Assembly: GCA_017526985.1 (NCBI GenBank)
Contig: JAFXQR010000119.1
Span: forward strand, 1 to 42,909
Length of the DNA: 42,909 bases
Direction: 5' to 3'
Origin: Lachnospiraceae bacterium
GTDB lineage: Bacteria; Bacillota; Clostridia; Lachnospirales; Lachnospiraceae
Shown: positions 8,630 to 42,138 of the stretch, in pieces
Layout: each line of letters opens with the position of its first letter
How positions within the stretch are numbered: the stretch's first letter is position 1
Notes under the pieces: model-generated
Told to the model about the DNA's origin: nothing
The model's input: the letters and a program-made list of their open reading frames with translations, nothing else
The model's database searches: none
Program-made: the position numbers and the translations under genes

Positions 8630-8639
8630 GGTGCAGACT

Positions 8640-11162: not shown

Positions 11163-12350
11163 ATGAATATTCTGGTGATGGACTGGCCGGCATTTGGCAG
11201 CGAAACAATGAAACGGACACTTGCGGAACTGGGGCATACCGTGTCGGTATTTGATTTTCCCTATGACAGTCCGGAAGTAAAAAACGGAGAGGATCTTTGC
11301 AGGCGGATCGCAGAACGGATCTTGCAGGATGCTGCGGATATCGTCTTTTCATTCAATTATTTTCCGGTGATCGCAACGGCGGTGTATGCGTGCAGAAAAA
11401 AATATGTTTCCTGGGTGTATGACAGCCCGGCGATCCATCTGTACTCCATGACGGTTTTTTTGGAGACAAATCATATCTTCCATTTTGATTCTCACGAGGC
11501 AGAGCGGATGCAGAGGGAGGGCGTACCGCATGTTTATTATCTGCCGCTGGCGGCCGATACAGAGGCGTATGACCGGATCGTACCGGGTGAGGAACACAAA
11601 AGAAAGTACGCAGCTGAGGTTGCGATGCTGGGCTCGTTATACAGCGAGAAGTATGGCTATTTTGATAAATACACCCGTTTTGACAAATATATCAAGGGAT
11701 TTCTGGATGGCGTAGTGAATGCGCAGGAGCAGATCCATGGCGTGAACTTTTTGGAACAGACGCTGACGCAGGATATCATGGAACGATTGCTCAAGACCGT
11801 TCCTTTGATCGCGGAAAAAGAGGATAGTTACGATACCCCGGCGTGGGTGTTTGCCAATTACTATCTGGCGATGCGGGTGACGGAGCAGGAACGCAGACGG
11901 ATGCTGGAGAAGATGGCGGAGCATTATGATGTGGCGCTGTATACCGGAAGTGATGCGAGCGGCCTGCGGAATGTCAGAAATATGGGCAGTGTGGAATATT
12001 ACCGGGAAGCACCCTACGCCATCAAATGTGCCAAGATCCATCTGAATGTGACACTGCGCAGTATTCAAAAAGGCATTCCTCTGCGGATTCTGGATATCAT
12101 GGGTTGCGGCGGTTTTGTGCTGTCGAACTATCAGGAGGATCTGTGCAGCGAGTTCGTACCGGATGAGGATTTTGTTTATTACGAAAGTATGGAAGATGCG
12201 GTAGAGAAGGCAGGGTATTATCTGGAACATGAGGATGAGCGCCGGCGCATTGCGGAGAACGGTTATCATAAGGTGAAGGAGTATCACAATTTCAAACAGA
12301 AGTGTTGTCAGATCCTGCAGATGATACAGAGTGCAGACGGAATGGTTTGA
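11163..12350 (+). CDS. CgeB-like GT-B glycosyltransferase
   Basis: This 395-aa protein begins MNILVMDWPAFGSETM, typical of the DUF3880/CgeB-like family, and has a GT-B fold. The N-terminal half carries the acceptor Rossmann domain (VFSFNYFPVIATAV, then YVSWVYDSPAIHLYS). The C-terminal half carries the glycosyltransferase 1-type nucleotide-sugar site: VEYYREAPYAIKCAKIHLNVTLRS followed by IPLRILDIMGCGGFVLSNYQ. In spore-formers such proteins decorate spore surfaces, and several homologues lie in flagellar glycosylation islands. A paralogue with the same motifs is at 40960-42138. It sits 15 bases after the Maf-like gene and 11 bases before the next LicD gene. No membrane segment is seen. Confidence 0.83.
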   Translation: MNILVMDWPAFGSETMKRTLAELGHTVSVFDFPYDSPEVKNGEDLCRRIAERILQDAADIVFSFNYFPVIATAVYACRKKYVSWVYDSPAIHLYSMTVFLETNHIFHFDSHEAERMQREGVPHVYYLPLAADTEAYDRIVPGEEHKRKYAAEVAMLGSLYSEKYGYFDKYTRFDKYIKGFLDGVVNAQEQIHGVNFLEQTLTQDIMERLLKTVPLIAEKEDSYDTPAWVFANYYLAMRVTEQERRRMLEKMAEHYDVALYTGSDASGLRNVRNMGSVEYYREAPYAIKCAKIHLNVTLRSIQKGIPLRILDIMGCGGFVLSNYQEDLCSEFVPDEDFVYYESMEDAVEKAGYYLEHEDERRRIAENGYHKVKEYHNFKQKCCQILQMIQSADGMV

Positions 12351-12361
12351 GGCGGAAATAT

Positions 12362-14581: not shown

Positions 14582-15355
14582 ATGAGTAGCATTAATAGCA
14601 TAGGACAACCGGGGAGCGACTATCTGTATAGTTCTCTTTCGAGCGGAAGCAGAGTGAACAGGGCTGCCGATGGCGCAGCACAAATGGCCATCAGTCAGGA
14701 GTTTGACCGTCAGAACGGCGGATACGAGGTGGGCACACGCAACCTGCAGGATGCGCGGAATGCGGCCAATATTGCAGACGGCGGCCTGAGCAATGTGGCG
14801 GATTCTCTGCAGCGAATGCGGGAACTGGCAGTACAGGCTGGAAACGGACTGCTGAGCGATGATGACAAGCAGTATATCCAGGCCGAGATCGACCAGCTCA
14901 AAAAGGGTATCAGCGATATGACGGACAAGACCGACTTTAACGGTATCCCGTTGCTTCAGAATGAAGACGGCAAGGTGCTGTTGATCAATTCGGATACCAA
15001 CGGTACGCAGATGGGGCTGAGCCGTCCGGATACCGGATTGGAGGCTCTTGGGATCGCGGATTTTGATGTGACCGGAGACTTTGATATCAGTAAGCTGGAC
15101 AAAGCGCTGGAAGCCATCGGAGGCAGCCGGGCCACCATCGGTGCGGAAACCAATGCCTTTGATGTGGCCATCGATGTGAATGGTGTGAGCAATTACAATA
15201 CCTATGCGGCAAAGAGCACCATGATGGATACGGAATACGGTGACTATGTATCCAAACTCAAGAATCAGGCGGTGCTGGAGACCGTGAATGCCCAGATGCA
15301 AAAGAAGCGCCAGGAAGACGCTGCCAACCGGATGATGGGTATAATGGGGAACTGA
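14582..15355 (+). CDS. Atypical short flagellin-like protein
   Basis: The 257-aa product has a flagellin N-terminal (D0/D1) region: LYSSLSSGSRVNRAADGAAQ near 16-35, followed by NLQDARNAANIADGGLSNVADSLQRMRELAVQAGNG and a heptad-rich helix ending in FNGIPLL. The usual MxIxxN start is replaced by MSSINSIGQPGSDY. The C-terminus (QAVLETVNAQMQKKRQEDAAN, then MMGIMGN) lacks the canonical block with DTDMATEM and a terminal LLQ. It still has an amphipathic helix that could pack in a filament core. A very strong AGGAGGTGG ribosome site precedes ATG at 14582. It may be a minor filament protein, a cap-proximal or junction-type subunit, or a secreted flagellin relative. A terminator follows directly, so it is transcribed alone. 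Confidence 0.8.
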   Translation: MSSINSIGQPGSDYLYSSLSSGSRVNRAADGAAQMAISQEFDRQNGGYEVGTRNLQDARNAANIADGGLSNVADSLQRMRELAVQAGNGLLSDDDKQYIQAEIDQLKKGISDMTDKTDFNGIPLLQNEDGKVLLINSDTNGTQMGLSRPDTGLEALGIADFDVTGDFDISKLDKALEAIGGSRATIGAETNAFDVAIDVNGVSNYNTYAAKSTMMDTEYGDYVSKLKNQAVLETVNAQMQKKRQEDAANRMMGIMGN

Positions 15356-15718: not shown

Positions 15719-17719
15719 ATGAATATATCCATTCAAAACAATATATTGGCGATGAATGCGGAACGCATGGTGGGGATCACTTCAGGGAAGAAGTCAAAAT
15801 CCGCTGAGAAGTTGTCTTCCGGATATCGCGTGAACCGGGCCGCTGACGATGCTGCCGGGTTGGCTATTTCTGAGAAAATGCGTAGGCAGATCCGGGGACT
15901 GGATCAGGCGTCCAGGAATATTATGGCCGGCGTAGGGTATGTGCAGACAGCAGAAGGAGCGTTAAATGAGGTAGATGAGATGTTGCACCGAATGACGGAA
16001 TTGTCGGTGCAGGCGGCCAACGACACGAATAGTGATCAGGACCGTGAATATATAGATATGGAGTTTCAACAGATCAAAGGTGAAATGGGCAGGATCTTTG
16101 ACACCACATCTTTTAATGAACAGCTCATATGGGAACCGGATCCGGATAAACTGGTGCAGGTGGGCACGGAACAACAGAATACGATCGCATATCGGGCGAC
16201 AAGCAGCGGAACAGACACTACCTATGCAAATAAAGGAGTGCTGCCTTATCAGAGTATCAAACTGGTGGCGGATGAAGAAGGGATTAAGGCAAGCTGGAAG
16301 GGATATGACGGCAACAGTTATGAGACAACCAAGGCGGACTGGGAAAGTCTGCAAGCGAATAATTATTCCTTCTCTTTGGAGAATTATATGCCGGATAGTA
16401 TAAAAGACGGTAGTGGAAATCCGCCTTTTAACTATACGGTAAAGTTCACGCCCAATCAGTATGCCACGCAGGATGATATTATTGCGGCGATTAACCAGAC
16501 CAGTATCAGCACCGGAGCCGGTTCGTACGCCAGATTGCAATTTGAGGATGCTGCGGGGAACGGGATCGCATTACCGGCAGGAGTGTCTATTTCGAATAGT
16601 GTTTCCCTTTCTTATGCGGCAGCGTATACTTCATCTGTAAACGGGAGTCATGATCTGGATGCGCCGGATGATACATTTATAGAACCGGCTCCGGCGAAGA
16701 ATCTGGTTTCTTATCCTGCAGCAACTACGGTAGAAGAGGCACGAAACAGTACGGATTCTTGGACTTTTAAGTTTAATATGACCGGGATCGGCGGGGTTAC
16801 GGCTTCGTGTACGGGAATCAGTTATTATTCCAATGACAGGGCGGCAGATGACGAAAACTATTGGTGGAAGTGGAATGACGCCTGGTTGGACAATCATACG
16901 CGCTATGAGCCGCATTACAGTCAAAGTACGATATCGCGTTCTGTGGGAAAAACTTTGGGCGGTGTTATGGATGCGCTTACGGGCGCCAAAGGTTCCGCAA
17001 CACCGGGGTTATTGCGCTCTGCTAATGATGGTGATGCCGACAGCGGTGGTTACATCACCATGTCATTTCGGGCAGATGCAGATGCTGCGTTCAGTTCCGG
17101 CAGCGTATCCGGAAAAGACAGGCTGTTTTCTTTCGATATCACGATCCGTGTGGATAGCAGCGATACAGAAGAGTCGGTGCTTGGAAAAATCAATTCCTTC
17201 CTAAATGCCAATACCAGACTGGATGTTTTTTCGCAGTCGCCGAAGGGGGATGAGAGCGTAAGTATCTATAGTCCGAGTACTTCACACAAGATCGAAACAC
17301 CGGTGTATGATTATGATCATTACAGGAAGCATATTCCGATCCAGGCAGGTGTTGAGGCAGGACAGATCATCGACATCAATTATCCGATCCTGAATCTGAA
17401 CAGTCTTGGTCTGGTACAGAGCAATACGCTTACACGGGAAGATGCCGAAAATGCGATCGAAGAGGTCAAGGAGGCACTGGCCACGGTCAATGGTGAACGG
17501 GCAGAGTTTGGAGCGTGGCAAAATCGACTGGAACATGCGTACAATATCAATCAAAACAGTGCGGAAAATACTCAGTATGCAGAGTCACAGATCCGGGATA
17601 CGGATATGGCGACCGAGATGGTGGAATATTCCAACCAAAACATTCTGGAACAGGCAGGGTTATCAATGCTCAGCCAGGCTAATCAGCAGACACAGGGGAT
17701 TTTGAGCTTATTGCAGTGA
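15719..17719 (+). CDS. Flagellin (filament subunit) with large variable domain
   Basis: This is a 666-aa flagellin, secreted by the flagellar type III apparatus and polymerised into the filament. Residues 1 to about 140 form the N-terminal D0/D1 region (MNISIQNNILAMNAERM, then SAEKLSSGYRVNRAADDAAG and ELSVQAANDTNSDQDR). The C-terminal D1/D0 part spans about 580-666 (QNRLEHAYNINQNSAENTQYA, AESQIRDTDMATEMVEYSNQ, ending LLQ). The middle 430 residues are a Ser/Thr/Asn-rich surface-exposed insert that offers many O-glycosylation sites. This fits the glycan operon next door. Most clostridial flagellins are 270-500 aa, so this one is large. The last 132 bases are nearly identical to 18584-18715, which could allow gene conversion. 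The stop is followed within about ten bases by a truncated Rpn-element gene. Confidence 0.95.
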   Translation: MNISIQNNILAMNAERMVGITSGKKSKSAEKLSSGYRVNRAADDAAGLAISEKMRRQIRGLDQASRNIMAGVGYVQTAEGALNEVDEMLHRMTELSVQAANDTNSDQDREYIDMEFQQIKGEMGRIFDTTSFNEQLIWEPDPDKLVQVGTEQQNTIAYRATSSGTDTTYANKGVLPYQSIKLVADEEGIKASWKGYDGNSYETTKADWESLQANNYSFSLENYMPDSIKDGSGNPPFNYTVKFTPNQYATQDDIIAAINQTSISTGAGSYARLQFEDAAGNGIALPAGVSISNSVSLSYAAAYTSSVNGSHDLDAPDDTFIEPAPAKNLVSYPAATTVEEARNSTDSWTFKFNMTGIGGVTASCTGISYYSNDRAADDENYWWKWNDAWLDNHTRYEPHYSQSTISRSVGKTLGGVMDALTGAKGSATPGLLRSANDGDADSGGYITMSFRADADAAFSSGSVSGKDRLFSFDITIRVDSSDTEESVLGKINSFLNANTRLDVFSQSPKGDESVSIYSPSTSHKIETPVYDYDHYRKHIPIQAGVEAGQIIDINYPILNLNSLGLVQSNTLTREDAENAIEEVKEALATVNGERAEFGAWQNRLEHAYNINQNSAENTQYAESQIRDTDMATEMVEYSNQNILEQAGLSMLSQANQQTQGILSLLQ

Positions 17720-17727
17720 CTTGTATA

Positions 17728-18276
17728 GTTGACAGGATCCTGAAACTGAGTGATTCATTTCCAAAAGGGAGGAATATAGAAAAGTCGGATGTGGAAGTGA
17801 CCGTTCATATGTATAATATTCGACCTCTGTGCCGAAGCAATATCCTGGATGGATGCAAGCCACTGATAGAGTATTCCTGGTTTATCGAAAAGGTTCGGAC
17901 GAATCGAAAGTCGATGGAAATGATGGAGGCCGTGGATAAAGCTATCGAAGTTATGCCTGAAGATTACGGGCTTCGTGGTTTCTTAAAACAACATCAGAGC
18001 GAGGTGAAGAATATGTGTATCACAGAATATAATGAAGCAGAAACGATGCAATTGTTTAGAGAAGAGGGGCGAGAGGAAGGGGAAGAACGGTGCCTTATAA
18101 AAATGATTTGCCGTAAACTTCGAAAAGGAAAAGCGCCTGAACAGATTGCGGATGAATTGGAAGAAGATGAAGAGCACATAAAGGAACTCTGTGATGTTGC
18201 AGAAGAGTTCGCACCGGACTATGATGAAGAAAAAGTTATGCAGGCCGTTGGAGTAGGGAAACTGATGCTGATATAG
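17728..18276 (+). pseudogene. 5'-truncated Rpn-family (PD-(D/E)XK) element gene
   Basis: The frame from about 17728 to the stop at 18274-18276 matches the C-terminal two thirds of Rpn-type recombination-promoting nuclease/transposase proteins (VDRILKLSDSFPKG, MYNIRPLCRSN, LIEYSWFIEKVR, AVDKAIEVMPEDYGLRGF, then an EEGREEGEE-type linker and a DELEEDEEHI tail). The nuclease core, including the catalytic residues, is missing. The homology to the sister copy at 19144-19856 begins abruptly about nine bases after the flagellin stop codon, which marks a recombination junction. There is no start codon with a proper ribosome site; a GTG at 17716 overlaps the flagellin stop. It is almost certainly non-functional. 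Confidence 0.8.
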
Positions 18277-19143: not shown

Positions 19144-19856
19144 GTGGAAACACAGATTAACGCACCTGCGATCCGAATATGCCGGCCCGGCTATTGATGT
19201 ACCTTGGCAGACAGTATGACAAATACATAAAAAAGATCGGACAGAATATCTATGGAAAGAAGCAGATGACGCTTCCCATCCCGAGACTGGTGACGTTTTA
19301 TAATGGTATGGATGATGTCACAGACAGGATCCTAAAACTGAGTGATTCCTTCCCTAAAGGGAAGGATATAGAAAAGCCGGATGTGGAAGTGACCGTTCAT
19401 ATGTATAATATCCGACCTCTGTGCCGAAGCAATATACTGGATGGATGCAAGCCATTGATAGAGTATTCCTGGTTTATCGAAAAGGTTCGGGAGAATCGAA
19501 AGTCGATGGAAATGATGGAGGCCGTGGATAAAGCTATCGAAGTTATGCCTGAAGATTACGGGCTTCGTGGTTTCCTAAAACAACATCAGAGCGAGGTGAA
19601 GAATATGTGTATCACAGAATATAATGAAGCTGAGACGATGCAGCTGTTCAAAAAAGAAGGCAGAGAAGAACAGCTGATCATTCAGGTATGCAGGAAGTTA
19701 CGAAAAGGGAAGAGCGTAGAACAGATTGCGGATGCACTCGAGGAAGATGAGGAATATATACAGAAAATCTGTGATGCTGCGGAAACGTATGCACCGGACT
19801 ATGACGAAGAAAAAGTAATACAGGCTGTTTGGAATGTTCCGATGAAGGCGGTATAG
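19144..19856 (+). pseudogene. Frameshifted, N-terminally truncated Rpn-family (PD-(D/E)XK) element gene
   Basis: GTG at 19144, after the ribosome site AAAGGAG, starts a frame reading VETQINAPAIRI that closes at TGA. The homologous continuation (PARLLMYLGRQYDKYIKK) is in another frame from 19179 and runs 225 codons to 19856. Joining the two frames at about 19179 restores an Rpn-like segment. The ExQ of VETQ may be the end of the PD-(D/E)XK active site, but the earlier part of the nuclease core is absent. Later blocks (LPIPRLVTFYNG, DRILKLSDSFPKG, MYNIRPLCRSN, EYSWFIEKVRENRK and the C-terminal EEDEEYIQKICDAAE) match the copy at 17728-18276. Likely inactive. Confidence 0.8.
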
Positions 19857-20222: not shown

Positions 20223-21749
20223 ATGGAATATATAATTGTACAGGCCGGTGGTAAAGGGACACGATTAGGGTACTTGACAAATAATAAACCCAAGGCTCTT
20301 GTGCCGATAGATAATCTGCCAATGCTTTTTTACCTTTTTAAGAAGTATCCGGATAAACGGTTTATAGTTATTGCGGATTACAAAAAAGAAGTGATGAGAG
20401 AATATTTGGCTGTTTTTTCGAATGTGAAGTATCAGATAGTTGATGCATCGGGTACTGGGACATGTGCAGGAGTAAAACAAGCTATAGATTTGTTGCCTGA
20501 TAATAAGCCGTTTATGCTTGTTTGGTCGGATTTAATTTTGCCTGACAGGTTTGAACTGCCAGAGGAGTACTCTGATAAAGCAGATGGAATTCCTGAGCAT
20601 GATTATGTGGGTCTGTCAGAGACGTTTTCATGCAGATGGAAATATGACAAGGGACAGTTCGCAGAAGAGAGATCGACTGAATGTGGTGTAGCTGGATTCT
20701 TCTTGTTTACAGGGAAAGATAAGGTTTCCGGTATTCCGACAAGTGGAGAATTGGTCAGATGGCTAAGTGAACAGGAAATTCAATTTAAGACCGTCGGACT
20801 TGGAGGCACAAGAGAATTCGGTATTCTTGAGGAATTTGAGAAGTTGGTTCAAGTAAAATGTCGACCGTTTAATAAGATTACAGTTGAGGGAGATGTGCTC
20901 ATAAAGGAGCCTATAGACTTACAAGGCGAGAAATTAGCAAAAAGAGAAACTGCTTGGTATGAAAAAGCGAGACTGCTGAATATTCCTGAACTTCCACAAA
21001 TATATGGGACATCACCGTTAAAGATGGAATATATTAATGGTAGAAATATATACGACTGTGATTTTGACTCTGACACTAAAAGACGCATTTTGAAATCTCT
21101 AATAAGCGCCTTGATGGAACTGCATCAGAGCGAGTCGGTAGAGGCGGATTCTTTCAGTATTCAGGAGGCATATTTCAATAAAACAATGGCTCGTCTTTCC
21201 AAGATACAGGACCTTGTTCCGTTTGGAAGAGATAGAGAGATTATTATAAACGGTCGTAAATGTCGAAATGTGTATTATCACCAAAAAGAGCTACAAAAAA
21301 GGCTTGATCAGTTGAAATATAATTGTGATCGCTTTGCGTTCATACACGGTGATTGTACATTCTCAAATCTTATGGTAAGGGAAGATAATTTTCCTGTTCT
21401 CATTGATCCAAGAGGATATTTTGGTTTCACCGAACTATATGGCGATGTCCGATATGACTGGGCAAAGCTATATTATTCTGTAGTTGGTAATTACGACCAG
21501 TTTAATCTTAAAAGATTCAAATTATCAATTGGAGAAACATCCAAACAGGGTGTGGTTCTGTCGATAGATTCTAATCACTGGGAGGAACTTGAAAAAGACT
21601 TCTTTGAGTTAACCAGATCGGATGAACAAGAAATAAGATTGCTTCATGCAGTTATATGGTTATCATTAACTACATATGCATGGCAGGACTATGATTCGAT
21701 ATGTGGCGCATTTTATAATGGACTTTATTACTTGGAGGAAGTATTATGA
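20223..21749 (+). CDS. Bifunctional nucleotidyltransferase-kinase (LicC-like plus LicA/APH-like)
   Basis: This 508-aa fusion has an N-terminal sugar/choline-phosphate nucleotidyltransferase domain (IIVQAGGKGTRLG at 4-16, NNKPKALVPI at 20-29, FMLVWSDLI for the metal aspartate), extending to about residue 230. A choline-kinase/aminoglycoside-phosphotransferase-fold domain follows: FIHGDCTFSNL near 372-382 is the Brenner motif with catalytic D, and VLIDPRGYFG near 392 holds the metal-binding D. In the LicA/LicC pathway these two activities make CDP-choline from choline. Fused in one chain, they would phosphorylate and nucleotidylate the same small alcohol or sugar. The substrate is unknown. ATG at 20223 follows GATGAGGAG. 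It starts an AT-rich operon and overlaps the next gene. Confidence 0.85.
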   Translation: MEYIIVQAGGKGTRLGYLTNNKPKALVPIDNLPMLFYLFKKYPDKRFIVIADYKKEVMREYLAVFSNVKYQIVDASGTGTCAGVKQAIDLLPDNKPFMLVWSDLILPDRFELPEEYSDKADGIPEHDYVGLSETFSCRWKYDKGQFAEERSTECGVAGFFLFTGKDKVSGIPTSGELVRWLSEQEIQFKTVGLGGTREFGILEEFEKLVQVKCRPFNKITVEGDVLIKEPIDLQGEKLAKRETAWYEKARLLNIPELPQIYGTSPLKMEYINGRNIYDCDFDSDTKRRILKSLISALMELHQSESVEADSFSIQEAYFNKTMARLSKIQDLVPFGRDREIIINGRKCRNVYYHQKELQKRLDQLKYNCDRFAFIHGDCTFSNLMVREDNFPVLIDPRGYFGFTELYGDVRYDWAKLYYSVVGNYDQFNLKRFKLSIGETSKQGVVLSIDSNHWEELEKDFFELTRSDEQEIRLLHAVIWLSLTTYAWQDYDSICGAFYNGLYYLEEVL

Positions 21750-22339
21750 TTGGCTATTACAAGGATGTTTTGGATACCATTAAGGATTCTCTGGAATCTA
21801 TAGATGAAAAGTTGTATGAACAGTTAATAGAGGAGTGTATTGAAACGTTAAATAACGGAGGCAAAATCATTGCCAGTGGTTTGGGGAAAAATGTCCCTAT
21901 ATGTGAAAAGTTCGTAGGAACGCTTAATTCTTTAGGTATAGATGCTCGATTTCTCCATACTAACACAGCGGTTCATGGAGATCTTGGAATGGTAGGAAAG
22001 AAGGATATTGTTCTCCTCTTAACGAAGGGAGGAAACACGAATGAAACTGTAGATCTGGGGATGCACTTGAACGAACGCGGCACAAACACATGGTTAATGT
22101 CCTTCTATGGTGATGGAAAAGCCTCAAAAATTATTGAAAAGAAGTTTATAATGCATCTTATTAATGAGGGAGACGAGTGGGATATTGTGCCAAATAATTC
22201 TACAACAGTATACTTGATAGTTCTTCAAGGAATTGCAATTGAAATTGGGAAAAGAATGAATATATCTTTGGATGATTTTCGAGTTAATCATCCGGGAGGT
22301 GGAATAGGAGCAAGATTATCAGGGAAAGAATTGCTGTGA
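21746..22339 (+). CDS. SIS-domain sugar-phosphate isomerase (KpsF/GutQ-like core)
   Basis: This 197-aa single-domain protein has a SIS fold: GGKIIASGLGKNVPICEKFVG is the phosphosugar-binding loop, FLHTNTAVHGDLGMV (residues about 70-84) and VLLLTKGGNTNET follow, and NHPGGGIGARL closes the domain. The HGDLGMV and NHPGG motifs are those of arabinose-5-phosphate isomerases (KpsF/GutQ), which interconvert ribulose-5-P and arabinose-5-P. The C-terminal CBS pair of full KpsF is missing. GmhA (sedoheptulose-7-P isomerase) is the main alternative. It overlaps the upstream fusion gene by ATGA, so the isomerase probably supplies or rearranges the sugar phosphate used by the neighbouring nucleotidyltransferases. 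Confidence 0.85.
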   Translation: MIGYYKDVLDTIKDSLESIDEKLYEQLIEECIETLNNGGKIIASGLGKNVPICEKFVGTLNSLGIDARFLHTNTAVHGDLGMVGKKDIVLLLTKGGNTNETVDLGMHLNERGTNTWLMSFYGDGKASKIIEKKFIMHLINEGDEWDIVPNNSTTVYLIVLQGIAIEIGKRMNISLDDFRVNHPGGGIGARLSGKELL

Positions 22340-22347
22340 GGGGAAGG

Positions 22348-23193
22348 ATGGAATTAAGAGGATACTCAGGGTGTGATTTGGAAATCATTACTAATAGTGG
22401 AATTAAGCAAGTGAGAAAAACAGCTGCTGACATTTCATATAATACTAGATTGAGTGAACAGAAGCGCAAGCAAGAGACTGTGAAACTCGGTAAATTACGT
22501 AATTGTAAAACCTATGATTGTGGGTTTAGAGATGGTTTATATTTCTTCACAATGGAATATATAAATGGTAATACGCTGGCAGAGCAAGTAGAGAATATAC
22601 AGCTATCAGACATGAAACATGTTGTTGATTGTCTTACTAGTCATTTTTCTGATTTTGAAAAGATTGATGCAGATGTAAATAATATGTTTATTGAAAAGAT
22701 AAAACAAGTAAAGGAAATGATTAGGAAAAGGGAAATAATTGAAAAGAATTGTACAGAAATTAATGAATCAATACAGATATTAGAGAATTATAATTGGGAT
22801 TGGGTTATACATTCTCAATGCCATGGAGATATGACTTTAGAAAACATTCTAGTAGCTTCAGATGGATTATATCTGATAGATTTCCTGGATTCATTTTATG
22901 ATACTTGGATGATAGATGCAGCAAAATTATTGCAGGATTGCGAATGCTTTTGGTCATATAGAAAAAAAGAGATTAGTACAAATATGAAGGTAAGACTTCT
23001 CGTGTTTAAGGATTTGTGTGTTGAGCGAATCGTCAGTATGAAAAATGGTAAAGAATTAATGGATACGGTTTATCATATTTTGCTTCTGAACTTGTTAAGA
23101 ATACTGCCTTATACGAAGACAGAAGAGGATTATATTTTTTTGAAATCAAATATTGCTTCAACAAATAAAAAATTGAGAGGTTATGGATTATGA
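22348..23193 (+). CDS. APH/choline-kinase-fold phosphotransferase
   Basis: The frame is open from a GTG at 22336 that overlaps the previous stop. ATG at 22348 with GAGGGG just upstream is the more natural start, giving about 281 aa. The protein is kinase-like: YFFTMEYINGNTLAEQVEN is the hinge segment, HSQCHGDMTLENILV near 155-169 is the Brenner motif with catalytic D and N, and LYLIDFLDSFYDTWMID holds the metal-binding D. The closest relatives phosphorylate small alcohols, sugars or aminoglycosides. In this operon a sugar or polyol substrate is more likely than a drug. It overlaps the next gene by ATGA. Confidence 0.75.
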   Translation: MELRGYSGCDLEIITNSGIKQVRKTAADISYNTRLSEQKRKQETVKLGKLRNCKTYDCGFRDGLYFFTMEYINGNTLAEQVENIQLSDMKHVVDCLTSHFSDFEKIDADVNNMFIEKIKQVKEMIRKREIIEKNCTEINESIQILENYNWDWVIHSQCHGDMTLENILVASDGLYLIDFLDSFYDTWMIDAAKLLQDCECFWSYRKKEISTNMKVRLLVFKDLCVERIVSMKNGKELMDTVYHILLLNLLRILPYTKTEEDYIFLKSNIASTNKKLRGYGL

Positions 23194-24248
23194 AAACATT
23201 AATTGTACCTTGCGCTGGAAAATCTTCACGCTTTTCGGGAATGCCTCCAAAATGGTTGTTAAAATATCCTGATGGCAGTCTTATGGTCAGGAAGGCAATG
23301 GATGGGTTGCCCTTAAATGCCTATGACAGAATAATTGTTACGGCTGTCAAAGAGCACGTCGAAGCATATGATGTAAATAATAAACTTGATATTGCGCTGC
23401 AGGGGCTGCCGTGTGACTACGAACTATGTGTTTTGGAAGAATTTACATCGTGTCAGGCGGAAACTGTATATAAGACACTTAAAAAATTCTCTGTGACAGG
23501 AAGTTTTTCTGTAAAGGATTCGGATAATTATATAAAAATAAAGGATTCAGATAATGCGGATTTCGTCGCGGGAGTTGATATGCATAAGTTCCCGCGTGAG
23601 ATAGAAAGACTGTCATCAAAGAGTTTTCTGATGGTTAATGATCAAGGCATTATTACTGATATTATTGAAAAGAAGATAGTATCACAATTTATCAGTATCG
23701 GGATGTATGGTTTTAGCAGTACAGATCTGTTTTGTGAGGCGTTTGAACATCTCGCGGAAACAAAAGGGATGGCTAATGAAATCTATTTAAGTCATGTCAT
23801 CTCTTATCTTATTGGCACAAAGAAAAGTGTTTATTCATATAACGAAGCAGATGATTATGAGGATTGGGGAACCAAGAAAGACTGGTATAAAGTACTTAAA
23901 GATAAGAGTACTTATTTTGTAAATGTTGAGGATATTATCGTCAAAAAGAATAGTGATGATGAAACGAGTATTATACTGAACGATGAAAATGTTGAATTTT
24001 TGAAGACGATTTTCCAAAAAGGATCTCAGATCATTTTGCTGTCAGCGCAAGATCAAGATTACCTTTCAAAGATAGAGAGAAAATTAGGTGAATCAGGAAT
24101 TGATATACATGCATCGGTTTCGGGGTGTTATTTGTCACATCAAAGACTTTTTAAGAGTTTTTCTGAAGAAATCCCATACCCATCGTGCGAGGCATATAAC
24201 ATAAAAGCCGACGACAGAATAGGAGCTCTGATCCGTGAAGAAGAATAG
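23190..24248 (+). CDS. Sugar-phosphate nucleotidyltransferase with HAD-like C-terminal tail
   Basis: This 352-aa protein starts with a variant nucleotidyltransferase signature, LIVPCAGKSSRFSGMPPKWLLKYPDG (residues 4-29). FVAGVDMHKFP follows, and a GMYGFSSTDLFCEAF block typical of glucose-1-phosphate thymidylyl/uridylyl-type enzymes. EDWGTKKDW ends the domain near 235. Residues about 250-352 (IILLSAQDQDYLSKIERKL, HQRLFKSFSEEIPYPSCEAYN) look like the C-terminal part of a capsule-type HAD phosphatase with no catalytic DxD seen. It is thus a fusion, or a nucleotidyltransferase with a regulatory pseudo-phosphatase. The product would be an NDP-sugar for the glycosyltransferases downstream. It overlaps both neighbours. 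Confidence 0.75.
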   Translation: MKTLIVPCAGKSSRFSGMPPKWLLKYPDGSLMVRKAMDGLPLNAYDRIIVTAVKEHVEAYDVNNKLDIALQGLPCDYELCVLEEFTSCQAETVYKTLKKFSVTGSFSVKDSDNYIKIKDSDNADFVAGVDMHKFPREIERLSSKSFLMVNDQGIITDIIEKKIVSQFISIGMYGFSSTDLFCEAFEHLAETKGMANEIYLSHVISYLIGTKKSVYSYNEADDYEDWGTKKDWYKVLKDKSTYFVNVEDIIVKKNSDDETSIILNDENVEFLKTIFQKGSQIILLSAQDQDYLSKIERKLGESGIDIHASVSGCYLSHQRLFKSFSEEIPYPSCEAYNIKADDRIGALIREEE

Positions 24249-24807
24249 ACTTGCTATATTTGATATGGATGGTACGTTATTCGATACTGTTAGGGCGAAT
24301 TATGAATCATACAAAGATGCTGTCATAAAAACAGTGGGAGATTGTGGAATTTTACTGGATGATTTTAAGGACAAGTGCTTTGGAAAGAATTATAAGGTAT
24401 TTTTGCGGGATATATTCAAAGTAGACGACTCTTTATTTGAAACGATCCATGATGCCAAATGTGCATCATATATGGATTATATAAAGGAATATGTCGTTGA
24501 AAATACGTTCCTTTTTGATGTTATTTGCGGATTAAAGGACACGTATTATATAGCTTTGCTGACTACCGCTTCTAAAAAAAATACTTATGAATTACTGGAT
24601 GTATTTAATAAAAGAGATGTGTTTGATCTGATATTGACAAGTGAGGATGTTCATAAACTGAAACCAGATGGAGAAGGATTTATAAAGTCAATGCAGTATT
24701 TTGGGGTTGATCCATGTGACACTGTTATTTTTGATGATTCGGATGATTGCTTGAATACTGCGAGAGAGTTAAATATTGATTGCTACAAGGTTATAGGGGA
24801 AAAGTGA
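24235..24807 (+). CDS. HAD-superfamily phosphatase
   Basis: This 190-aa protein has HAD motif I at IFDMDGTLFDT (D10 nucleophile, D12), motif II at LLTTASKKNT, motif III lysine at HKLKPDGEGF, and motif IV at VIFDDSDDCLNTA. A helical cap is inserted after motif I, as in phosphoglycolate-phosphatase and beta-phosphoglucomutase-type enzymes. It starts with GTG and overlaps the previous gene by 14 bases. In an operon with an isomerase, kinases and nucleotidyltransferases it probably removes a phosphate from a sugar-phosphate intermediate, as GmhB does in heptose synthesis. The exact substrate is unknown. Confidence 0.85.
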   Translation: MKKNRLAIFDMDGTLFDTVRANYESYKDAVIKTVGDCGILLDDFKDKCFGKNYKVFLRDIFKVDDSLFETIHDAKCASYMDYIKEYVVENTFLFDVICGLKDTYYIALLTTASKKNTYELLDVFNKRDVFDLILTSEDVHKLKPDGEGFIKSMQYFGVDPCDTVIFDDSDDCLNTARELNIDCYKVIGEK

Positions 24808-37344: not shown

Positions 37345-38340
37345 TTAATTCTCACTTTCGTAGTTGAAATCAACGCCTTTGATCGTTGCCAATATCCTTT
37401 TAATGATATTGGAAGATCTGTAAGCGCTGGCCAAATGTTCTTTTGTGTATGCCATCGGTGTGTGGATGGTTCTTTGTATCAGAAGATTTGTGAAATAGCG
37501 TTCCCAGCTGAAGTATTTTTCGGAATCGGCATAGTTTTCGGCATGCTCGATCTCATCTTTCGAAATATCTTTTATGATTCCGGAATTCAGGATCAGCCAT
37601 TCGAAAGATTCCGGAAGGAATAGATGAAGTTCGGCTCCGGAATAGATCAATTCGCAGATACGTTCCATTTCCGGGCCAAAAGCAGCGCCATCGGCTATGA
37701 TCAGAATAGGATGCTCCGAGCGCTTCTGAACAGCAGAGTATACGTTGGATTTGCCTCCTGCGGTACAGCACTTCATTTCGCTGCGGCTATTTTGGGCAAT
37801 GGAACAGAAGAAATCATAGCCGGAATTGGAATCCTCTATAATGATTTCGTTCGGTGAGATGTTCTCGCCGACAGCAAGATTATGAAGATATTCTTCGTAG
37901 ATATGGTAGGTTTCGTGATAGACCGGTACCGGATCGTTGTACTTTCCGGTGCTGCGTATTCCGTAGATTTCGGAAACGCTATACGGCAAATTGCTCAGCT
38001 TCTCGCGGGTGACAAGTACATAATAGTTTTTGCCCTCGCGGACATAATGCGCGAAAGCTTCGGAGGAAACAAAACGGTTTCCCTCATCAATGAAAACAAT
38101 ACTTCCCTTGATCGGTGTGAGTTGTTCTTCCCAAGTGTTGCCTTCAATGACACGGCATGGGATATCACAGCTGAAAGTAATGCCACTGTCCGGTCCGTTC
38201 TGAACATAGTCGCGGATCATGTCAACAAGCACCGTCTTTCCGGAGGCACTGTCGCCCTTTAAGATGGTGATGTTGCGTTTGATATTCAGTTCATATTTGC
38301 AGGTAGCATTGGCTACCAGGATATGGTGTGAGCCGATCAT
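37345..38340 (-). CDS. P-loop NTPase of a poorly known family (often mislabelled translation initiation factor)
   Basis: The frame extends to a TTG at 38406, but that codon is the -35 box of a promoter on the same strand. ATG at 38340, giving MIGSHHILVANATCKYELNI, fits better, with about 331 aa. Walker A is ILKGDSASGKTVLVDMIRDY, and Walker B is GSIVFIDEGNRF. Later blocks are YYVLVTREKLSNLPYSVSEI, EDSNSGYDFF, AGGKSNVYSAV, IADGAAFGPEMERI and LPESFEWLIL. I recall this family from Lachnospiraceae, where automated labels call it translation initiation factor 2. Nothing here supports that role. The ADGAAFG and ESFEWLIL segments recall Toprim or ATPase-associated folds, but this is a guess. It forms an operon with the DUF4869-like gene. 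Confidence 0.75.
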   Translation of the reverse strand: MIGSHHILVANATCKYELNIKRNITILKGDSASGKTVLVDMIRDYVQNGPDSGITFSCDIPCRVIEGNTWEEQLTPIKGSIVFIDEGNRFVSSEAFAHYVREGKNYYVLVTREKLSNLPYSVSEIYGIRSTGKYNDPVPVYHETYHIYEEYLHNLAVGENISPNEIIIEDSNSGYDFFCSIAQNSRSEMKCCTAGGKSNVYSAVQKRSEHPILIIADGAAFGPEMERICELIYSGAELHLFLPESFEWLILNSGIIKDISKDEIEHAENYADSEKYFSWERYFTNLLIQRTIHTPMAYTKEHLASAYRSSNIIKRILATIKGVDFNYESEN

Positions 38341-38377
38341 GATTCTTTGGTTTAAACCTCTAGCGTTTGCTTTAGAT

Positions 38378-38406
38378 AGTATAGCATATTTGTTGTTTTT
38401 TTCCAA
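38378..38406 (-). promoter_or_regulatory. Sigma-A promoter of the P-loop/DUF4869 operon
   Basis: On the minus strand TTGGAA (38406-38401) and TATACT (38383-38378) are 17 bases apart, with TGC before the -10 box. The transcript would start near 38371, upstream of ATG at 38340. GGTTTAAACC, a 10-bp palindrome, lies in the short leader. Confidence 0.65.
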
Positions 38407-38427: not shown

Positions 38428-38456
38428 TTGTAAAATGGAGCATTTCCCGATATAAT
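38428..38456 (+). promoter_or_regulatory. Sigma-A promoter of the CDP-polyol operon
   Basis: TTGTAA (38428-38433) and TATAAT (38451-38456) are separated by 17 bases, about 50 bases before ATG at 38504. It is divergent from the minus-strand promoter at 38378-38406, with about 20 bases between the two -35 boxes. Confidence 0.75.
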
Positions 38457-38503: not shown

Positions 38504-39169
38504 ATGATGCAGTTTGAATTGATGGCATCGATGATGTGTGCAAACTACGGACACCTGGCAAAAGAGGTCCGGACATTGGATGAAGCGGGGATTGATTCGT
38601 TTCATATCGATATTATGGACGGGCGATATGTACCGAACTTTGCGATGTCCTTAAACGATATGCGCTGCATCCGCAGGTATACCGACAAACCGATGGATGT
38701 GCATTTGATGGTGGAACATCCGAATAATACGATAGGATTGTTTTTGGATAATTTGCGCCCGGGGGATACGGTCTATATCCATCCGGAGGCAGAGTATCAT
38801 CCTTCCACGACTTTGCAAAAGATCATCAATGCAGGAATGATCCCGGGGATTGCGATCAATCCGGGTACCAGTGTGGAGACGATCTATGAGATGTTGCGGA
38901 TCGTGGATAAGGTATTGGTGATGTCGGTAAATCCCGGCAATGCAGGCCAGATGTATCTGGAATATGTCGGTGAGAAGTATAAGAAACTGCTGCCGATGCA
39001 AAAGGAAATGGGTTTTGATGTGTATTGGGACGGCGCCTGCAGTGCGGAAAAGATCAAGACCTTTGCGCCGATGGGAGTAAAAGGCTTTGTTCTGGGCACG
39101 ACACTTCTGTTTGGCAAGGAGACGCCCTATGCGGACACGATCAAGGCAATCCGGGAGCTGGATATATGA
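38504..39169 (+). CDS. Ribulose-phosphate 3-epimerase-like protein
   Basis: This 221-aa TIM-barrel protein has the epimerase motifs FHIDIMDGRYVPNFA (metal His and catalytic Asp, about 32-46) and MDVHLMVEHP (metal His). SVNPGNAGQMYLE replaces the usual VNPGFGGQ, and VYWDGACSAEKI replaces the usual DGGI block that carries the second catalytic Asp. The aspartate is kept, but nearby residues differ, so the substrate may be another pentulose or hexulose phosphate. ATG at 38504 (or the adjacent 38507) follows GGGGGTGGG. It overlaps the next gene by ATGA. In this operon the likely role is to supply D-ribulose-5-phosphate or a related ketose phosphate to the TarJ-like dehydrogenase. Confidence 0.82.
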   Translation: MMQFELMASMMCANYGHLAKEVRTLDEAGIDSFHIDIMDGRYVPNFAMSLNDMRCIRRYTDKPMDVHLMVEHPNNTIGLFLDNLRPGDTVYIHPEAEYHPSTTLQKIINAGMIPGIAINPGTSVETIYEMLRIVDKVLVMSVNPGNAGQMYLEYVGEKYKKLLPMQKEMGFDVYWDGACSAEKIKTFAPMGVKGFVLGTTLLFGKETPYADTIKAIRELDI

Positions 39170-39888
39170 GACATTGTGTAGCGGTGTTATTATCGGGGGG
39201 TACGGGAACACGGCTGGGAGCCGAGATCCCGAAACAGTATATCAGAACGGGCGGCAGAATGATGATCACACGCAGTCTGCACGCCCTGTTTTTGTGTCCG
39301 CAGATCGAGGCGGTACAGATCGTGGCGGATGCGGCATGGCATTCGGAGATTGCAGAAGATTGGAAGGCTATGTGTGCGGACGGGGATCCGAAGGGGCGGA
39401 TCGCGGGCTTTTCAGCACCGGGCGAGACCAGGCAGCTGTCCATTTTAAACGGGCTGGAGGATATTGCGGTGCAGTACGGTGAGGATACCGTGGTATTGGT
39501 TCACGACGCGGCGCGGCCTTTTGTATCCGTGGGGATGTTGGAAAAATGCATCACAGCCTGCGCAGATCATGACGGGGCGATGCCGGTACTGCCGATGAAA
39601 GATACGGTATATTACAGTGACAACGGGCGCACGGTCACCAGGCTCCTGGAACGGGAGTGTATATACGCGGGGCAGGCGCCGGAGGCATTTGTGCTGGGCA
39701 AGTATCTGGCTGCGAACCGGACACTGCTGCCGGAGCGGATCCTGCTGATCAAGGGATCAACGGAGCCGGCGGTGATGGCAGGGATGGATATCGCAATGAT
39801 CCCCGGCGAAGAGAGCAATTTCAAGGTGACTACGCGGGCGGATCTGGAGAGGTATGAGACAATTGTGATGAATGGGGGCAAGGCATGA
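39166..39888 (+). CDS. IspD/TarI-like cytidylyltransferase (ribitol-5-phosphate type)
   Basis: The frame is open further upstream, but ATG at 39166 (MRHCVAVLLSGGTGTRLGAE) overlaps the stop of the epimerase gene and gives the family start; the length is 240 aa. Motifs: LSGGTGTRLGAEIPKQY (9-25, CTP binding), TVVLVHDAARPFVSVGMLEK (metal Asp), MPVLPMKDTVY, GQAPEAFVLGKYL and NFKVTTRADLERYE. IspD makes CDP-methylerythritol, while TarI/Bcs1 makes CDP-ribitol. Coupling by ATGA overlap to a TarJ-like dehydrogenase strongly favours the polyol-phosphate role over the isoprenoid role. Confidence 0.85.
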   Translation: MRHCVAVLLSGGTGTRLGAEIPKQYIRTGGRMMITRSLHALFLCPQIEAVQIVADAAWHSEIAEDWKAMCADGDPKGRIAGFSAPGETRQLSILNGLEDIAVQYGEDTVVLVHDAARPFVSVGMLEKCITACADHDGAMPVLPMKDTVYYSDNGRTVTRLLERECIYAGQAPEAFVLGKYLAANRTLLPERILLIKGSTEPAVMAGMDIAMIPGEESNFKVTTRADLERYETIVMNGGKA

Positions 39889-40937
39889 AGGCTTGGGTAT
39901 TGCACGGTGTAAATGATATTCGATATGAAGATGTAGAGCGACCGCAGCCGGCGCCGGGGGAGGTGCTGGTGAAGGTGAGTGCCTGCGGGATCTGCGGCTC
40001 CGATATTCCGCGCATCTATGATACCGGGGCGCACCGCCATCCGTTGATCCCGGGACACGAGTTTTCCGGGCAGGTGGAAGCGCTTGGAGAAGGCGTGGAG
40101 GCAGGCTGGCAGGGCAAGCGAGTCGGTATTTTCCCGCTGATCCCCTGCAAAGAATGTGCACAATGCAGGAAACAGCGTTACGAAATGTGCTCAAACTACA
40201 ATTATCTGGGATCGCGCCGGGATGGCGGATTTGCGGAATATGTCTGCGTGCCGGAATGGAATCTGCTGCCATTGCCGGATGGTGTGAGTGATGCAGCGGC
40301 GGCAATGCTGGAGCCGATGGCGGTAGCGGTACATGCGATGCGTATCGGAGCGCCGGAAAAGGTTGAGAAGATTGTGGTCTGCGGGCTGGGGACGATCGGG
40401 CTGTTGCTCACGATGTTTTTGAAAGGGCAGGGGCTTTCGGATATTCTGGTGATCGGCAATAAGGAATTCCAGCGGCAGCAGGCGATGAAGTTAGGCATTC
40501 CTGCGGAGGATTATTGCGACAGCAGGCAGACGGAAGTGCGCGACTGGATTCGCGAGCGGACGGATGGCGCAGGGGTAGATCTGTATTTTGAATGCGTAGG
40601 GCGCAACGAGACGGCGGCTCTCGGGCTGGATGTGGCAGCGGCTGGCGGGCGCGTGGTCTTTATGGGCAATCCCCATTCGGATATGGCCTTCTCGCGCGAC
40701 ACCTATTGGAAGATCCTGCGGAAACAGCTGACCGTCCGGGGAACCTGGAATTCGTCCTATACCAAGTCGGAGGATGACGACTGGCACTTTGTACTGCGAT
40801 GCCTGGAATCGGGAAGTGTTGCGCCGGAAGCGTTGGTCACACACCGGCTGAACCTTGCAGAGCTGGAACGGGGGCTGCACATTATGCGAGACAAAACGGA
40901 AGACTATTGCAAGATTATGGTGAATTTTGGGGAATAA
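39885..40937 (+). CDS. Zinc-dependent alcohol dehydrogenase, TarJ-like (ribulose-5-phosphate reductase type)
   Basis: This 350-aa medium-chain dehydrogenase has its catalytic zinc site at ACGICGSDIPR and GHEFSGQVEALGEGVE. The structural zinc site is PCKECAQCRKQRYEMCSNYN (four cysteines). The Rossmann coenzyme site is VVCGLGTIGLLLTMFLKG, followed by NKEFQRQQAMKLG. It could be sorbitol/threonine-dehydrogenase-like, but the ATGA overlap with the TarI-like gene matches the TarI-TarJ pair that makes CDP-ribitol from ribulose-5-phosphate. With the epimerase this forms a three-gene CDP-pentitol pathway. It lies 22 bases before the CgeB-like glycosyltransferase. Confidence 0.82.
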   Translation: MKAWVLHGVNDIRYEDVERPQPAPGEVLVKVSACGICGSDIPRIYDTGAHRHPLIPGHEFSGQVEALGEGVEAGWQGKRVGIFPLIPCKECAQCRKQRYEMCSNYNYLGSRRDGGFAEYVCVPEWNLLPLPDGVSDAAAAMLEPMAVAVHAMRIGAPEKVEKIVVCGLGTIGLLLTMFLKGQGLSDILVIGNKEFQRQQAMKLGIPAEDYCDSRQTEVRDWIRERTDGAGVDLYFECVGRNETAALGLDVAAAGGRVVFMGNPHSDMAFSRDTYWKILRKQLTVRGTWNSSYTKSEDDDWHFVLRCLESGSVAPEALVTHRLNLAELERGLHIMRDKTEDYCKIMVNFGE

Positions 40938-40959: not shown

Positions 40960-42138
40960 ATGGAAATCCTATTTTATCGATACAATTCCATCTGTGAGCC
41001 GGATGTGATCGCGGCATTTGAGAAGCTTGGACTGACCGTGGTGCAGGAACGGACGCAGATGACGGAGAAGGGAACGACGGGAGCACAGCTGGTGGATCAG
41101 GTGAGCAGGCTGCTGATGGAACATCGTTTCCTTTTTGTATTCTCCATCAATTTCTTTCCTGCACTCTCGGAAGTGTGCGAGATCGCGCAGGTGCCGTATG
41201 TGTGCTGGACGGTAGATGTGCCGGTGCAGGAGTTGTTTTCGCCGGCGCTTAAGAACAAGTGCAACCGGGTATTTATGTTTGACCGGTCACAGTATGAGTA
41301 CTTTAAGGGCCGCAATCCGGAGGGGATCTTTCATTTGCCGCTGGCGACCAATGTAGAGCGGTGGGATGCCGTGATCGGGAAGGCGGCGGATCGGCAAAAG
41401 TATGCGGCGGATATTTCGTTTGTGGGTTCTTTGTACAGCGAGAAGAATGCCTACAGGAAGATCGCCGGGATGAGTGAATATTCCAAGGGCTATGTGCGGG
41501 GGCTGATCGAGGCGCAGCTGCAGGTATACGGAGTGAACTTTATCGAAAGTATGCTGACGGATGCGTTGATGCAGGAACTGGATCCGCTGGTGCCGGAGCT
41601 TCATCATCCTTTGTGTGAAGGGGATACGGCGGCGCAGAGATATCTGATCGCGCATTCTTATATCGGATCGGAACTGGCGGAGACGGAGCGGATACGGCTG
41701 CTGAATGCGCTTGCGGAGTATTATGAGGTGGATCTGTATACCTATAGTGACACATCGGTCGTGCCGAAGGTTCGTGCGCATAAAGGGGTTAATACACTCA
41801 CGGAAATGCCGCTGGTATTTCACAAGAGCCGGATCAATCTGAATATCACCATGCGGCCCATCGCGACGGGATTGTCGTTGCGGCTATTTGACGTGTGTGG
41901 GTGCGGCGGATTTCTGCTGACCAACTGGCAGGAGGAACTGCCGGAACTTTACGAGCCGGGCGTGGAAGCAGAATACTTCGGTTCGAAAGAGGAGCTTTTG
42001 GATAAGGCCGGGTATTATCTCGAGCACGATGAGAAACGGGCGGAGATCGCAATACTCGGGTATAAGCGGACGAAGGCAGAGCATACCTACGACCGGCGTA
42101 TCGCGGAGATGATACGTATCGTGAACGGGACGATCTGA
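40960..42138 (+). CDS. CgeB-like GT-B glycosyltransferase, paralogue of the 11163-12350 gene
   Basis: This 392-aa protein begins MEILFYRYNSICEPDVIAAF and continues VFSINFFPALSEVCEIAQVP and YVCWTVDVPVQELFSPALKN. A central block ISFVGSLYSEKNAY is also in the paralogue (VAMLGSLYSEKYGY). The nucleotide-sugar site is FHKSRINLNITMRPIATGLSL followed by LRLFDVCGCGGFLLTNWQEE. It probably adds a sugar to the polyol-phosphate-bearing glycan, or to the flagellin itself. Having one copy on each side of the AT-rich island suggests that regions 1 and 5 once formed one locus. Confidence 0.83.
   Translation: MEILFYRYNSICEPDVIAAFEKLGLTVVQERTQMTEKGTTGAQLVDQVSRLLMEHRFLFVFSINFFPALSEVCEIAQVPYVCWTVDVPVQELFSPALKNKCNRVFMFDRSQYEYFKGRNPEGIFHLPLATNVERWDAVIGKAADRQKYAADISFVGSLYSEKNAYRKIAGMSEYSKGYVRGLIEAQLQVYGVNFIESMLTDALMQELDPLVPELHHPLCEGDTAAQRYLIAHSYIGSELAETERIRLLNALAEYYEVDLYTYSDTSVVPKVRAHKGVNTLTEMPLVFHKSRINLNITMRPIATGLSLRLFDVCGCGGFLLTNWQEELPELYEPGVEAEYFGSKEELLDKAGYYLEHDEKRAEIAILGYKRTKAEHTYDRRIAEMIRIVNGTI

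Follow-up and report, generated by a model that had tools for sequence, protein, structure and literature searches.

A set of three adjoining genes, encoding an epimerase, a cytidylyltransferase and a dehydrogenase, lies at positions 38504-40937 of a 42,909-nucleotide stretch of DNA from a Lachnospiraceae bacterium (assembly GCA_017526985.1, contig JAFXQR010000119.1), the whole of which we refer to as the window. The three genes do form a module, which is probably a self-contained cassette that would make a hexitol activated with cytidine diphosphate (CDP). Its genes belong to recognisable families, are inherited together, include an epimerase with a hexulose-type signature and, in part of the genomes, cluster with genes for LicD-family proteins and flagellins. 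Known CDP-alditols include CDP-glycerol and CDP-arabinitol. CDP-ribitol, CDP-mannitol and CDP-glucitol appear in the available part of one published account (PMC10918830). The conserved epimerase-reductase-cytidylyltransferase set predicts a further CDP-alditol, in gut and rumen bacteria. No description of this set was found among the literature matches listed, in a search whose coverage does not extend to subscription journals.

A three-gene cassette for a putative CDP-hexitol

An earlier note on this DNA had described the three genes as joined by ATGA overlaps and read them as a CDP-pentitol pathway. The open reading frames (ORFs), their forward orientation and the ATGA at both overlaps (epimerase/cytidylyltransferase and cytidylyltransferase/dehydrogenase) were confirmed, and so was the broader notion of a dedicated CDP-alditol-type route apart from the isoprenoid and pentose-phosphate pathways; a pentitol product is not well supported. 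The cassette consists of the following genes:

38504-39169, forward strand: hexulose-6-phosphate 3-epimerase-like protein of 221 amino acids, forming its own subfamily of the RPE/AlsE superfamily (Pfam PF00834, subfamily alignment, loop and motifs)
39166-39888, forward strand: cytidylyltransferase of 240 amino acids, in the IspD/TarI superfamily but outside both named families (Pfam PF01128, NCBIfam, tree, residues)
39885-40937, forward strand: GatD-like, zinc-dependent medium-chain dehydrogenase/reductase (MDR) of 350 amino acids, a presumed ketose phosphate reductase (Pfam PF08240/PF00107, PDB, scores)

The first two products match the Pfam families Ribul_P_3_epim (161.9 bits, cut-off 21.1) and IspD (119.5 bits, cut-off 27), and the third matches ADH_N (107.1 bits) and ADH_zinc_N (73.2 bits), well past the cut-off. 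In the pathway that we propose, the epimerase would convert fructose-6-phosphate to allulose-6-phosphate, the GatD-like dehydrogenase would reduce the ketone at C2, giving an allitol- or altritol-type hexitol-6-phosphate, and the cytidylyltransferase, to judge from its family, would use cytidine triphosphate (CTP) to couple the hexitol-6-phosphate to cytidine monophosphate (CMP), yielding a CDP-hexitol; these last two steps might occur in the reverse order, as in Campylobacter. In a fourth and less certain step, a LicD-family or other transferase may put the hexitol-phosphate on a flagellin glycan or another surface glycan.

It is a tentative proposal, possible though doubtful in its full extent, that gut and rumen Lachnospiraceae make an undescribed CDP-hexitol of the allitol or altritol type via C3-epimerisation of fructose-6-phosphate, and that LicD-type transferases place hexitol-phosphate on flagellin glycans. 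If true, this would be a bacterial counterpart, using another alditol, of the way in which fukutin and FKRP add ribitol-phosphate. The mass of the glycan would tell the two kinds of decoration apart, at +244.03 Da for hexitol-phosphate versus +214.02 Da for pentitol-phosphate.

The epimerase carries a hexulose-type active-site signature

The active-site sequence of the epimerase bears the signature of a hexulose-type enzyme, that is, of an allulose-6-phosphate epimerase. Residues H34, D36, H67 and D176, which we take to be the metal ligands of RPE and AlsE, are invariant in the subfamily alignment. The DGGI block is changed to WDGAC; the earlier note had remarked on this alteration, which is real, and was well guided in suggesting that it might accommodate an unusual ketose. 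In the subfamily the loop after strand 6 is mostly NPGNAGQ, where RPE has NPGFGGQ, and the strand-7 block is DGA in place of DGG. In the loop that follows strand 8, G and F are separated by four residues (GTTLLF), compared with three in RPE (GSAVF).

These differences are consistent across the sequences compared. The four-residue strand-8 loop is found in all 71 cassette epimerases, in 11 of 11 relatives and in E. coli AlsE, whereas the RPEs compared, including the organism's own housekeeping copy, have the three-residue loop, FGGQ and DGG in four cases out of four. Among the cassette epimerases the strand-6 motif is NAGQ in 57, NASQ in 8, NAAQ in 3, SAGQ in 2 and HAGQ in 1, the strand-7 block is DGA in 70 and DGS in 1, and the RPE-type combination of short loop, FGGQ and DGG occurs in none of the 71. 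AlsE (PDB 3ct7) aligns through the strand-8 loop free of gaps, while three of the four RPE alignments are gapped and the fourth ends there. Chan and colleagues, in 2008, reportedly attributed the hexulose specificity of E. coli AlsE to a one-residue loop difference.

The company kept by related epimerases points the same way. In a phylogenetic tree the cassette epimerase groups with epimerases of allose operons (L147-L149); two of these 50-52% identical relatives, L147 and L149, adjoin an allose kinase (326 and 343 bits, NCBIfam cut-off 253) and L148 adjoins RpiB. A Listeria plasmid record has the gene order LacI, epimerase, RpiB, hypothetical protein, phosphotransferase system (PTS), glycosidase, which matches lmo0734-0738, and its epimerase is 52% identical to that of the window. 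In the part of the source available, lmo0735 is described as essential for growth on D-allose and regarded as having alsE function (PMC5893763). The earlier note's starting point, ribulose-5-phosphate leading to ribitol, did not hold up against an epimerase that has a phosphate site of the allulose-6-phosphate-epimerase type and groups with D-allose operon enzymes. On the grounds of loop, motif and neighbourhood, ribulose-5-phosphate is disfavoured as the default substrate; pentulose use is less likely but conceivable, as whole-sequence scores alone lean towards RPE. There is a consequence for annotation as well: public records label relatives of the epimerase as ribulose-phosphate 3-epimerase, and those among them that share the strand-8 loop may be enzymes of the hexulose type.

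The cytidylyltransferase and dehydrogenase stand apart from TarI and TarJ

The cytidylyltransferase had been called TarI-like, a label that survives in part. In pairwise comparisons it scores 97-119 bits against TarI-type proteins versus 71 against the organism's own IspD; at the same time it misses the NCBIfam cut-offs for both TarI (NF001183, 119.2 bits, cut-off 166) and IspD (TIGR00453, 148.2 bits, cut-off 181.3), forms a separate clade and has changed residues. Its closest PDB chains are 3f1c (100 bits), 2vsh (99 bits) and 4jis (79 bits); only 4jis is named a ribitol-5-phosphate enzyme in the PDB, and the other two are presumably TarI. A tree of 22 rows was built from the window sequence, 15 of the 58 named-locus sequences and six references (five TarI-type proteins and the own IspD). 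In this tree the window sequence and 13 of the 15 named-locus sequences form one 14-row clade (support 100/99), apart from the TarI-type rows and IspD.

A residue survey of 57 sequences (the window and 56 of the 58, the two lowest-scoring having been dropped) revealed that GG-G-R, PKQ, HD-RP, DT, R163 and N-K-T, which we assume to be nucleotide-site residues, are kept in 91-100%. By contrast, changes affect positions at which the five TarI-type references and IspD all agree: QTPQ has become QAPE (in 84% and 93%), and the TD motif has G in place of D (in 88%). We read these changes as pointing to a different pocket for an alditol- or ketose-phosphate.

The "TarJ-like" label of the third gene was not upheld. 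The closest solved structure is that of GatD, galactitol-1-phosphate 5-dehydrogenase (PDB 4a2c, 33% identity), which scores 188 bits, versus 148 for threonine dehydrogenase and 68 for the TarJ-like protein L163, whose own TarJ label rests on its TarI-like neighbour gene. The NCBIfam GatD model PRK10309 is the best-scoring family although its cut-off is missed (209.8 bits, cut-off 550), and the order among the GatD, threonine dehydrogenase and TarJ-like outgroups was not settled in a dehydrogenase tree. GatD acts on a hexulose-6-phosphate pair. The cassette dehydrogenase is presumed, from these relationships, to reduce a ketose phosphate.

The three genes are inherited together

We determined the extent to which the three genes travel together in 60 genomes, 35 from the same genus (the own genome included) and 25 from others. 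Orthologues of the cytidylyltransferase (at least 45% identity) were found in 21 of the 35 same-genus genomes and in none of the 25 others, where the matches listed (E 1e-10) reach at most 32%. The epimerase is present in 19 of these 21, adjoining the cytidylyltransferase in 18 (16 loci, the window and genome G012) and lying elsewhere in one (G003), and it was found (E 1e-40) in none of the 14 same-genus genomes that lack the cytidylyltransferase. The dehydrogenase adjoins the cytidylyltransferase in 17 of the 21 (16 and the window), with G012 left out of the test, and lies elsewhere in the genome, at 56-59% identity, in G013, G024 and G026.

A scan of named genomes, restricted to the best 80 of 584 confirmed loci (the total is higher), gave a similar picture. 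Ten of the 80, with epimerases at or below 365 bits in the subfamily profile, were set apart as distant relatives, leaving 70 cassette-type loci; among the distant ones, L141 also has a cytidylyltransferase and a dehydrogenase next to it, and L146 a cytidylyltransferase. Of the 70 loci, for which the length of fetched flank varies, 43 have the cytidylyltransferase immediately after the epimerase and on its strand, and 53 have it somewhere in the locus; 49 contain the dehydrogenase and 48 contain both partners. In 17 genomes no cytidylyltransferase lies nearby, but 14 of these encode one elsewhere (best matches 49-59% identity); of the other three, one shows a 41-residue fragment at 71%, and the remaining two show nothing above 26-27%. 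In the scan the subfamily shows at least 66-67% identity, with the next matches listed at 60% or below, and at family level a subfamily epimerase (at least 67%) occurs in 47 of 397 genomes, the other seven among the matches listed (E 1e-60) standing at 45-53%. The organism also has housekeeping counterparts of its own: an RPE that shares 31% identity with the cassette epimerase, and a stronger IspD match on contig C210 (E 3.6e-59 to Pfam).

Further genes were considered as members of the pathway by scanning ten proteins from eight other loci. The downstream ones belong to unrelated families (PEP carboxykinase, GGDEF/EAL, histidine phosphatase, MutS, Wzy_C-like and YgjP-like), so the module is taken to be three genes. 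A phage or plasmid origin was likewise considered: matches to the epimerase occur among plasmid records (39 at E 1e-30) and in a phage collection (37 records at E 1e-20), all below 60% identity, and no cassette-type copy is among them. One locus, L113, carries two cassette-type epimerase genes in tandem (3990-5440).

Association with LicD and flagellin genes

The other end of the window, at 0.1-17.7 kb, has the make-up of a flagellin glycosylation locus, in which flagellins, a Maf-type gene and transferases stand side by side. The three LicD-family proteins that the earlier note had reported there were recovered with Pfam PF04991 (109.1-120.2 bits, cut-off 22.6), together with the Maf-like gene and both flagellins:

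2007-3449, forward strand: LicD-family protein 1 (Pfam LicD)
3446-5728, forward strand: LicD-family protein 2, with a long C-terminal part that has no Pfam match (Pfam LicD)
8631-11147, forward strand: MptE-like protein (PF01973), which we take to be Maf, fused to DUF6492
12302-14311, forward strand: LicD-family protein 3, with a long C-terminal part that has no Pfam match (Pfam LicD)
14582-15355, forward strand: short flagellin-like protein
15719-17719, forward strand: flagellin of 666 amino acids

Co-occurrence of the cassette with licD and flagellin genes in other genomes, which the earlier note had raised, exceeds chance and is not universal. A LicD gene lies no more than 5 kb from the cassette in 7 of the 21 genomes (0.15 expected), and a flagellin gene within 5 kb in 4 (0.23 expected) and within 25 kb in 7 (0.78 expected); the 21 genomes are akin, which makes the chance probabilities come out too small, and the excess is large all the same. 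Among the 70 named loci, LicD is no more than 3 kb away in 18, flagellin no more than 11 kb away in 8, and Maf in 4. Flagellin directly adjoins the cassette in L030, L033, L035, L041 and L123, and is found inside it in L106. We take this distribution to mean that surface glycans at large draw on the cassette, with flagellin glycans doing so in some of the cases. Flagellins of gut and rumen bacteria can be sensed by the host.

Parts of this association have precedents. The available part of one source (PMC4875605) counts ribitol biosynthesis among the contents of the flagellin glycosylation islands in two strains of Enterobacteriaceae, so a link between such islands and a pentitol has already been proposed, and a role for a LicD-family protein in the synthesis of a polyol-phosphate polymer has been published (PMC11666461, seen in part).

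The 330-400 residue C-terminal part of LicD2 and LicD3 is common to LicD proteins of other loci, and LicD1 has only its last portion. A TagF-like domain was considered for this part and rejected: two window fragments gave no Pfam match even at E 10, three fragments of relatives matched Pfam at chance level only, and comparison with three PF04464 regions of the same genome gave no profile match (hhalign probability 0.5%). Elsewhere in the own genome, two long proteins, L167 and L168, carry a PF04464 (TagF-type) domain, and their N-terminal part resembles a YidC-type membrane insertase by eye.

Weighing the hexitol reading against alternatives

Several observations weigh against a hexitol product and its transfer by LicD. 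By whole-sequence scores the epimerase is nearer RPE (NCBIfam TIGR01163, the best-scoring model, 170.5 bits, cut-off 212.6) than AlsE (PRK09722, 146.8 bits, cut-off 271), both cut-offs being missed; the allose-operon relatives likewise score best as RPE, so these models may not discriminate between the two. The subfamily profile ranks AlsE fifth of 15 PDB matches, behind four RPEs (121 versus 134 bits at best). E. coli AlsE falls outside the cassette clade, pairing on long branches with the other epimerase of L152, and the shared strand-8 loop may therefore be convergent. A 49% identical relative with the same loop adjoins an L-ribulokinase gene (L152), a Staphylococcus relative lies near a ribokinase gene, and the cassette-specific changes of F to N and V to W are seen in neither RPE nor AlsE. 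AlsE itself is promiscuous. In the cytidylyltransferase tree two of the 16 cassette-locus rows, L079 and L146, fall with TarI and IspD on long branches. The epimerase was not found (E 1e-40) in G001 (L024) and G031 (L025) despite the presence of the cytidylyltransferase and dehydrogenase; these may represent a natural variant that makes a non-epimerised alditol. Finally, a LicD match is missing from 3 of the 21 cassette genomes; other transferases must serve in these, and LicD cannot account for the transfer in every case.

The alternative that survives best, although we regard it as unlikely, is a CDP-pentitol module in which the epimerase would supply xylulose-5-phosphate, leading to CDP-arabinitol or CDP-xylitol and not to CDP-ribitol. 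Pneumococcal Abp1/Abp2 provides a model for this xylulose-5-phosphate-based logic, and the conversion of ribulose-5-phosphate to xylulose-5-phosphate is the commonest reaction of the epimerase superfamily. The RPE-leaning scores, the L-ribulokinase neighbour and the nearest PDB chains of the cytidylyltransferase (3f1c, 2vsh and 4jis) would all fit, but the AlsE-type strand-8 loop in all 82 epimerases examined, the allose-operon relatives, a reductase nearer GatD than TarJ, and QTPQ and TD residues changed in 84-93% of the 57 cytidylyltransferases argue against the pentitol.

A supply of precursors, ribitol or other, for wall teichoic acid, with no link to flagella, is rather unlikely. The earlier note had set wall teichoic acid aside on the ground that no TagO, TagA or TagGH gene was in the window, an argument that fails, as one PF00953 (TagO/WecA-type) and four PF04464 matches lie elsewhere in the own genome (TagA and TagGH were not searched for). 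In 14 of the 21 genus genomes, moreover, no flagellin lies within 25 kb of the cassette, contig ends being limiting. Against such a role, the cassette enzymes show no close kinship with TarI/TarJ, and flagellin or LicD neighbours occur above chance. Of 398 genomes of the phylum, moreover, only 2 gave a match to a TarI query under the strict threshold of E 1e-45.

It is improbable that the product is a CDP-ketose, with the cytidylyltransferase activating the epimerised ketose phosphate, the ketose itself being transferred and the dehydrogenase serving another or optional step. The Campylobacter HS:5 cytidylyltransferase does act first, on fructose-6-phosphate, according to the available part of its description (PMC10918830). 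The dehydrogenase is apart from the other two genes in G013, G024 and G026, but all three of these genomes keep their 56-59% identical copy. That housekeeping duplicates from the pentose-phosphate and isoprenoid pathways were brought together by chance, as the family names of the first two genes might suggest, is scarcely credible in view of the separate housekeeping copies in the same genome, the co-inheritance across genomes and the gap between the epimerase subfamily (at least 66-67% identity) and the next matches listed (at most 60% and 53%).

Surroundings of the cassette in the window

The features that immediately flank the cassette are as follows:

37345-38406, reverse strand: protein of 353 residues that has no Pfam match and, by eye, contains a Walker-A-like motif (GDSASGKT)
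38428-38456, forward strand: promoter-like site TTGTAA-17-TATAAT ahead of the cassette (consensus match only)
40960-42138, forward strand: glycosyltransferase-like protein (DUF3880 and Glyco_trans_1_2), starting 22 bases past the cassette

The glycosyltransferase-like protein is 35% identical to the product of 11163-12350 in the flagellin cluster. Promoter-like consensus sites number 10 in the region, versus 6.1 expected from shuffles. The 353-residue protein also adjoins the cassette, or sits a few kb off, in L026, L034 and L074, and in a 97% identical relative (L074/L023, contig C34 of G006) about 1.8 kb with a 318-residue ORF lies between this minus-strand gene and the epimerase.

The cassette lies 20.8 kb downstream of the end of the flagellin cluster, with an AT-rich block and the minus-strand gene intervening. 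GC content drops from 0.47-0.52 ahead of the block to 0.34-0.39 at 18-34 kb, then rises to 0.44 at 34-38 kb and reaches 0.51-0.55 at the cassette. In the closest genome, G006, DNA matching the window ends at window position 17875, where the G006 contig stops, and the match around the cassette starts only at 36936, the intervening block not being shared beside the cassette. Two near-duplicate genes with no family assigned (likeness by eye), at 17716-18276 and 19179-19856, flank the start of the low-GC block; the DNA near them is repeated, also at the end of G006 contig C11, and this repeat is perhaps an assembly or recombination boundary.

Within the low-GC block, between the flagellins and the cassette, a second sugar-nucleotide-like operon (20223-24807) encodes an NTP-transferase/APH kinase fusion, a KdsD-like SIS isomerase, an APH-like kinase, a weak MobA-like protein and a HAD phosphatase. 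The fusion at 20223 was tried as a LicC-LicA (choline) protein and gave a weak LicC match of 21 bits. Homologues of this gene lie near a 49-51% identical relative of the epimerase in L144, L150 and L151, with a mannose-6-phosphate-isomerase-like gene between the two in L144.

Comparison with known systems

The available part of one description assigns CDP-6-D-glucitol synthesis in Campylobacter jejuni HS:5 to HS5.18 and HS5.17, and CDP-mannitol synthesis in pneumococcus 35A to Mnp1 and Mnp2 (PMC10918830). As in those pathways, the cassette pairs a PF01128 cytidylyltransferase with a reductase and would turn a hexulose-6-phosphate into a CDP-hexitol destined for a surface glycan; HS5.18 and Mnp1 were compared by description, not by sequence identity. 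The reductase is a PF01370 short-chain dehydrogenase/reductase (SDR) in the two published pathways and a zinc MDR in the cassette, and the cassette has a dedicated epimerase whereas none for the hexitol branch is seen in the part of the description available (PMC10918830).

TarI/TarJ belong to the same cytidylyltransferase and zinc MDR superfamilies as the cassette enzymes. The cassette cytidylyltransferase is 26-31% identical to three TarI chains, the dehydrogenase is 27% identical to the TarJ-like L163, a weaker match than to GatD, and the TarI/TarJ pair comes without an epimerase. With AlsE/Lmo0735 of Listeria the cassette epimerase shares strand-8 loop length, the AGQ and DGA motifs and 52% identity to the Listeria protein, but the neighbours there are an allose kinase and an isomerase, and at the cassette they are biosynthetic. 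From AlsE it differs in NAGQ, YWDGAC, the missed NCBIfam cut-off and the position of the E. coli enzyme outside its clade. GatD is the nearest solved relative of the dehydrogenase, yet the latter falls below the equivalog cut-off and has another pathway context. For the transferases, the LicD profile finds FKRP in the PDB (E 1.7e-7), and two of the window LicD proteins add their long C-terminal part. The cassette would work like a CDP-alditol pathway, and does not belong to the TarI/TarJ pair, being a variant with a zinc MDR reductase and a dedicated epimerase.

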